A DNA stretch of 64,000 nucleotides from Alkalibacter rhizosphaerae (GTDB lineage Bacteria > Bacillota > Clostridia > Eubacteriales > Alkalibacteraceae). The position numbers and the translations under genes were made by a program. The DNA lies in the NCBI RefSeq assembly GCF_017352215.1, contig NZ_CP071444.1:2294001-2358000 (forward strand), written 5' to 3'. Below the pieces are notes generated by a model. That model saw only the letters and a program-made list of their open reading frames with translations. It was not told where the DNA came from and searched no databases. Below are positions 57,926 to 58,787 of the stretch, piece by piece; positions within the stretch are counted from its first letter, which is position 1, and the number at the start of each line of letters is the position of its first letter.

Positions 57926-58087
57926 GCTGTTTTCCTCCCGTTCCGTCCATTCTTGTGGTACATTGAATATGGTACCACAAAACGATAATTTCGTCGCCTG
58001 AAATGTGCATATCCATTGGCAAGGTAAACGGAGCGTTTATTGATTGTTCCTGTCGACAAGCCTATAATGAAAAACGAGGTGGAATTT

Positions 58088-58672
58088 ATGGATCCGATAA
58101 AAACCGGGAATTTAATAAAAACATTGCGCTTGGAATTGGGTATGACCCAGCAACAACTGGCAGATGGCATTTTTGTCAGCGATAAAGCTGTTTCAAAATG
58201 GGAACGGGGAGTCGGATGCCCGGATGCATCATTGCTTCCTTTGTTGGGAAACATACTCGGTATCGATCCAGCCACCATCTTGTCTGGGGAATTGAACCCC
58301 AATGAGTCCATGGGAGGAAATATGAAAAGATTGAAATTTTACGTTTGTGGCGAATGTGGAAACATTCTAACATCTACTGAAGAAGCATCCATTTCTTGCT
58401 GCGGAAGAAAATTGATGTCACTTGAATCAAAAAAAGCAAGAGAAGAAGAAAAATTATCGGTGGCTATCTTGGAAGGGGATTATTATATCAGCTCTGATCA
58501 TGAAATGTCCAAGAACAACCACATTGCCTTTGTTGCTTTTTTAAACGGAGATACGCTTCTCCTTCGAAAATTATATCCGGAGTGGAATTTATCTACAAGA
58601 ATTCCAAAGTTGAGTCGCGGCGTTTTGTATTGGTATAGTACCCAGGACGGTCTTTATCATCAGTATGTTTAA
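58088..58672 (+). CDS. XRE-family regulator fused to a desulfoferrodoxin-like domain
   Basis: A 194-aa protein. Residues 6-60 are an XRE helix-turn-helix (LRLELGMTQQQLADGIFVSD, then KAVSKWERGVGCPD). After a linker comes FYVCGECGNILTSTEEA with SCCGRKL, the Cys-rich motif of the desulfoferrodoxin N-terminal rubredoxin-like iron site, then DHEMSKNNHIAFVAFLNGDT and LYPEWN, which parallel the superoxide-reductase domain; the usual Cys ligand near the end appears lost. It therefore looks like an iron- or redox-sensing regulator. I use ATG 58088 with GAGGTGG upstream. Its terminator lies just behind it. Confidence 0.82.
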   Translation: MDPIKTGNLIKTLRLELGMTQQQLADGIFVSDKAVSKWERGVGCPDASLLPLLGNILGIDPATILSGELNPNESMGGNMKRLKFYVCGECGNILTSTEEASISCCGRKLMSLESKKAREEEKLSVAILEGDYYISSDHEMSKNNHIAFVAFLNGDTLLLRKLYPEWNLSTRIPKLSRGVLYWYSTQDGLYHQYV

Positions 58673-58674
58673 TC

Positions 58675-58720
58675 AAAACAGCTTTTTCATCCAATAGAAC
58701 AGGATGGGAGGGCTGTTTTT
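58675..58720 (+). terminator. Terminator after the XRE regulator
   Basis: An 18-bp stem with four G-U pairs (58675-58692 with 58702-58719) runs into a short T tail. Confidence 0.75.
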
Positions 58721-58787
58721 GAAATGGTTGTATTTTGTATAGAGTTTGTTATAATCAAGATATTAATAAGAGAAAAGAGGGAAGCAC

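Follow-up and report, generated by a model that had tools for sequence, protein, structure and literature searches.

An XRE regulator with a desulfoferrodoxin fold that lacks the catalytic iron site, and a predicted operator at its own promoter

We describe a gene of Alkalibacter rhizosphaerae, located in a window of 64,000 nucleotides (the whole stretch of DNA that was analysed), whose product is an XRE-type helix-turn-helix (HTH) followed by a full desulfoferrodoxin/superoxide reductase (SOR) fold, a true fusion. More probably than not, this protein is a self-regulating XRE regulator whose input is a cysteine-metal centre (centre I) and not SOR chemistry. Comparison with homologous proteins suggests that loss of the catalytic SOR site (centre II) arose about five separate times in related anaerobic bacteria.

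Results

Architecture of the gene and its product

Features of the locus are collected in Table 1. The start codon agrees with that of relatives, and the predicted terminator hairpin, whose long stem and 9-nt loop caused a simple consensus terminator scan to miss it, follows directly after the stop codon and would make the gene monocistronic.

Table 1. Features of the fusion-regulator locus (positions within the window)
Feature	Position	Strand	Basis or remark
Predicted operator GTAAACGGAGCGTTTATTG, palindrome TAAACG-GAG-CGTTTA	58024..58042	+	Phylogenetic footprint in 49/98 relatives
Predicted sigma-70 promoter TTGATT-17-TATAAT	58040..58068	+	10/12 matches; same layout in relatives
Likely ribosome-binding site GAGGTGG	58076-58082	+	Upstream of the fusion-regulator ATG
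Fusion regulator CDS	58088..58672	+	ATG start, 194 aa + stop; start agrees with relatives
XRE DNA-binding domain (P22 c2 / 434 repressor-like), residues 4-68	58097..58291	+	HTH_3 and fold match
Desulfoferrodoxin/SOR-fold domain, residues 78-194	58319..58669	+	Z 14.5 to 1y07, 13.5 to 1dfx; dfx_rbo E 2.9e-4
Centre I, desulforedoxin-type, C87, C90, C104, C105 (C-x2-C-x13-CC)	58346..58402	+	Conserved in family alignment
Ablated centre II columns E121 (was His), H138 (kept), N144 (was His), S184 (was Cys), D187 (was His)	58448..58648	+	Ligand table
Predicted intrinsic terminator, hairpin + U run	58673..58722	+	RNA fold -24 kcal/mol, z -5.7

The N-terminus matches the XRE-family profile HTH_3 (Pfam E 2.4e-11, 43.9 bits against a curated cut-off of 23), and in structure comparison of an AF2 model its HTH fold reaches Z 11.7 to the operator-bound P22 c2 repressor. 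Taken alone, the C-terminal domain gives a weak sequence match to the NCBIfam model dfx_rbo (TIGR00320; 21 bits against a cut-off of 146.9) and finds 2ji1 in the PDB at E 0.019; Pfam profile search of the window protein returned no match to the desulfoferrodoxin model PF01880. The desulfoferrodoxin-like assignment is nevertheless secure, because several close homologs in the fusion family score above the PF01880 cut-off and because the model matches whole SOR structures (Z 13-14.5 over 114-115 residues of the segment 78-194; Foldseek E 7e-8 to 2ji2). The fusion that an earlier note on this DNA had read by eye is thus borne out, and the profile searches with desulfoferrodoxin models that it proposed succeed for several homologs and fall short for the window protein itself. 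The model was built from 23 aligned family members and has a mean pLDDT of 89.8; since its pTM is only 0.58, the placing of the two domains relative to each other is unsure.

One metal site kept, one lost

C87, C90 and C104 of centre I are invariant in the aligned set and C105 is replaced in nine of 98 homologs, so the four-cysteine site named in the earlier note holds. Set against the centre I motif of the HTH-Dx-SOR class, the protein has all four Cys with a spacing of x13 instead of x15, and x13 is the spacing of the whole clostridial subfamily. Coupled changes in the two metal sites mark a well-supported clade of eight (L117, L129, L132, L135, L136, L137, L151 and L154), in which Cys-4 of centre I is replaced by His (a Cys3His site) together with replacement of His-4 of centre II by Asp.

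True SORs carry the centre II motif (E)(K)H-x19-27-H-x5-H-x40-63-C-x2-H (PMC11980386). The window protein does not match it, reading E121/H138/N144/S184/D187, and is therefore not classed as a SOR; H138 is the sole ligand left. Loss of the final Cys ligand had been noticed before and proves correct (S184), with the His beside it (D187) and the first His (E121) gone as well. The supposed HPMxxxH loop fared less evenly: its first His is indeed the ligand H138, and its second, H145, sits one residue past the ligand column, which is N144; relatives mostly have Tyr or Phe at the position of H145. The whole protein contains three His (H138, H145, H191) and a single Cys outside centre I, namely C44 within the HTH. 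A 4His-1Cys centre is for that reason impossible within one chain, and as judged from the residues present it is refuted for the window protein.

The same genome also encodes a distinct SOR in which every ligand is present (EKH, HPNTFEH, CNIH), and the enzymatic task is therefore covered elsewhere. This protein (G000:C1:1265230-1265550, L043) has about 124 aa, is class II-like and is devoid of a desulforedoxin domain.

Repeated loss of centre II in the family

Relatives and 391 genomes of the same class were searched for members of the family. About 75 places were found at E 1e-38 or better, followed by a gap and then by ordinary desulfoferrodoxins at E 8e-32 or worse. The 98 full-length fusions extracted fall into 41 families, come nearly all from Clostridia and have the same layout throughout.

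Centre II ligands are complete in 56 of these 98 homologs, and most of the rest keep some of them; one group of ten either lacks His-1 with the rest kept or has His-4 replaced by Asp or Glu. In ten sequences, the window protein included, Cys, His-3, His-4 and His-1 are all lost together. Each time Cys has become Ser, while His-2 and the four centre I cysteines are all kept. In the ligand table of the 98 homologs, His-3 and His-4 are absent from every Cys-less member, which points to a centre II that is either retained whole or given up whole.

On a maximum-likelihood tree made without the ligand columns, the ablated state needs five changes, at least four of them forced by well-supported branches, and the grouping of the six nearest ablated sequences into one clade is rejected (p-AU 0.021). 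The losses fall in or beside groups that already lack His-1. Values of dN/dS in ablated pairs are 0.07 (L026/L029) and 0.10 (L157/L158), like those of intact pairs, with 0.07 and 0.13, respectively, for the C-terminal domain. These low values imply that the ablated form has been kept by selection in those two lineages. The branch of the window protein itself is long (0.48), and L013 and L016 of the same genus carry a more intact version.

The survey also brought up some unusual architectures. L111 (1273-2715), a member with centre II intact, carries a C-terminally fused SAM-dependent methyltransferase (leucine carboxyl methyltransferase family, PF04072), so that the order is HTH-Dx-SOR-methyltransferase. 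Apparent lone Dx-SOR domains of the fusion subfamily, with no in-frame HTH, occur at L125, L130 and L039; they could be either genuine single-domain proteins or products of split genes.

A predicted operator at the regulator's own promoter

The family shares an operator with the consensus CTCTACGGAGCGTTKATTG, which abuts the -35 box of the gene's own promoter. In the fuller consensus AACTCTACGGAGCGTTKATTGA, the final TTGA is the promoter -35 and a TATAAT-like -10 follows about 17 bp on. Of the 98 members, 49, representing 24 families, have an exact ACG-N3-CGT core in the interval -110 to -40 relative to the start, most often near -60; 200 shuffles yielded a mean of 0.8 and a maximum of 4. Roughly half of the members, among them the ablated pair L026/L029, have no exact core, and many of these have a recognisable variant, e.g. 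CTCTACTNNNCGTAGG. The operator is kept in the centre II-less members P0001, L012 and L126.

In the window, the operator of Table 1 is the only strong family-type site, and the same holds for the genome. The next best site of the genome (1995925-1995943, minus strand) has one mismatch from a degenerate pattern, about 0.15 such sites being expected by a rough estimate. The ORF that follows it is uridine-kinase-like and has an odd promoter spacing; the site is a weak candidate for a further operator.

Two other repeats were considered as operators and rejected. The palindrome TTGTGGTAC-N10-GTACCACAA (57953-57980) occurs once in the genome, is missing upstream of relatives and has a spacing unlike that of the family operator. 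Its 9-bp arms are perfect inverted copies, it is located upstream of the ybaK-like/nitroreductase pair, which is divergent, and its RNA hairpin z is -3.1; it could serve a different regulator or form a hairpin in RNA. The dyad GTTTTCG-N6-CGAAAAC is confined to genus g7.

Neighbouring genes and predicted targets

A CatA-like gene of the chloramphenicol-acetyltransferase (CAT) family (PF00302) is located one or two genes downstream of the regulator, on the same strand, at 7 of 64 loci; in genus g7 the gene order is regulator, DUF2087, CAT. Perfect operators were also found away from the regulator, before CatA-like CAT genes in three genomes (G018, G221, G300) and before a DUF2087 gene in a fourth (G012), all four genomes carrying the regulator. 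These sites, far from the regulator gene (L206, L235, L236, L217), define a predicted regulon of CatA-like acetyltransferase and DUF2087 genes. In 48 genomes with the regulator, each of the ten CAT genes most similar to the regulator-linked group is either close to the regulator or has its own operator (for G008, G022 and G035 this count was judged by genome position only). An APH(3')-like gene appears once as an operator or operon partner in relatives. These CAT-like proteins fall short of the NCBIfam threshold for true CatA, so their presence does not imply resistance.

The genome of the window species itself has no CatA-like gene. There, the predicted target is the regulator itself, in agreement with the self-regulation considered in the earlier note, and possibly the ybaK/nitroreductase pair too: with the operator placed between the divergently oriented genes, an effect on the pair is possible. 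Control of the nitroreductase as such, suggested in the same note, is not supported. That gene has no conserved operator of its own, the one family-type operator in the window being that at 58024-58042, and no conserved neighbourhood with ybaK or nitroreductase was found, nitroreductase-like genes occurring near 5 of 64 loci in varying positions.

At L119, L142, L143, L148, L165, L166 and L246, a small protein similar to GIY-YIG-type nucleases is encoded upstream of the family gene. In G300 its gene, followed by DUF2087 and the regulator, stands behind one operator. The one copy tested had no Pfam match.

Discussion

Proposed working of the regulator

We propose that the XRE head binds the ACG-N3-CGT palindrome abutting its own -35 and in this way would control its own transcription. 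Blocking of RNA polymerase is favoured because the promoter is near consensus. Activation of the lambda cI type would fit too; lambda cI activates from -42, and the centre of the operator here is some 43 bp ahead of the predicted transcription start. Within the SOR-fold body, the four-cysteine desulforedoxin-type centre would be the only one that can still bind metal. Its oxidation, metal loss or metal exchange, leading to changed DNA binding, is probably the signal; a redox change or metal loss at centre I is the most economical input because this centre has been kept throughout while catalysis was repeatedly abandoned. We infer that the window protein binds the operator at 58024-58042, and the bound metal, the direction of regulation and the signal are to be read in the same way. 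In principle, the operator might instead serve a different regulator.

For the family as a whole we suggest, with some reserve and at less than even confidence, that HTH-Dx-SOR proteins are one-protein metal switches of anaerobes. They would share one ancestral operator and a small regulon made up of themselves, CatA-like acetyltransferase and DUF2087, with the SOR centre as an all-or-none module, dropped as a unit some five times and always with Cys changed to Ser, so that the cysteine-bound metal alone would be left to be read.

The main rival explanation keeps the operator and changes the signal. A Cys4 site can hold zinc in a purely structural role; centre I might accordingly be a structural zinc or redox-inert knob, with a small molecule, for instance an antibiotic-like one, sensed in the emptied SOR beta-sandwich, and the protein would be a xenobiotic-responsive regulator of acetyltransferases. 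The partners found in relatives (CatA-like acetyltransferases, and the single APH(3')-like gene) agree with this, the catalytic centre II is dispensable, and the exchange of a centre I Cys for His in the clade of eight suits zinc as well as iron. That the operator-bearing genes in relatives are CatA-like acetyltransferase and DUF2087 genes, and not classical oxidative-stress genes, also counts against a redox signal. A pure ligand pocket, however, would not need centre II ligands, which are kept fully in 56/98 members and partly in most others. We regard small-molecule sensing as rather unlikely, if a serious contender.

It is very improbable that the gene is a decaying pseudogene or fragment that lost its function along with centre II. 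The long branch and the ligand loss in the window species, next to the more intact L013 and L016 of the same genus, could be read in that direction, but the frame is open, promoter and ribosome-binding site are good, terminator, operator, HTH and Cys4 are in place, ablated relatives have dN/dS of about 0.07-0.10, and parallel losses strike the same four positions each time.

Least probable of all is a working iron sensor in which an SOR-like histidine centre reacts with oxygen species, the oxygen-sensitive iron centre of the earlier note: the SOR fold, H138 with the neighbouring H145 and relatives with intact ligands speak for it, but four of five ligand positions are gone, three His and no spare Cys in the domain are left, and other ablated homologs have no His at either 144 or 145.

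Relation to known proteins

SORGOdb (2011) lists an HTH-Dx-SOR class of 19 proteins, giving its architecture and not its function (PMC3116461). The window protein belongs to this class by its N-terminal HTH followed by a desulforedoxin-type centre and SOR fold; it differs in having E121/N144/S184/D187 in place of His/His/Cys/His and x13 in place of x15 in centre I. It resembles 2Fe-SOR/desulfoferrodoxin (1dfx, 2ji1; C. difficile Sor CD0827) in the fold (residues 78-194) and in its four-cysteine centre I, and differs by the absence of the catalytic centre II and the added DNA-binding domain. The closest solved fold by Z (14.5) is the class III SOR of Treponema pallidum (1y07). In class III SORs active site II is kept, and the N-terminal region, which lacks the desulforedoxin centre, has been called a region of unknown function (PMC3116461). 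Such enzymes are the mirror image of the window protein, which keeps centre I and is without centre II. P22 c2 and 434-type XRE repressors have a like DNA-binding fold and a palindromic operator beside the -35, with a CI-like dimerisation domain where the window protein has a metal-domain sensory body.

OseR of C. difficile and TrtA of T. denticola are transcription regulators of anaerobes tied to the oxygen response (PMC11481553, PMC12724145). Both were considered and set aside, as neither belongs to the HTH-Dx-SOR family: OseR is a Spx/YusI-type protein, and TrtA is a 104-aa XRE protein in which its authors recognised no domain past residue 80.

In the open-access literature (subscription journals lay outside the scope), we found no experimental study, function, operator or target of HTH-Dx-SOR proteins. 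As far as this literature was checked, the repeated ablation of centre II, the operator and the link to CatA/DUF2087 are undescribed; the architecture was already known.

Significance

The predicted operator and regulon give the HTH-Dx-SOR class a concrete proposal, testable in one gel-shift experiment. They tie a desulfoferrodoxin-type regulator to CatA-like acetyltransferases, a connection unexpected from the label of oxygen defence. By losing the catalytic centre repeatedly and under selection, the family has provided a natural experiment in which the part of centre I in sensing is separated from the enzymatic chemistry of centre II.
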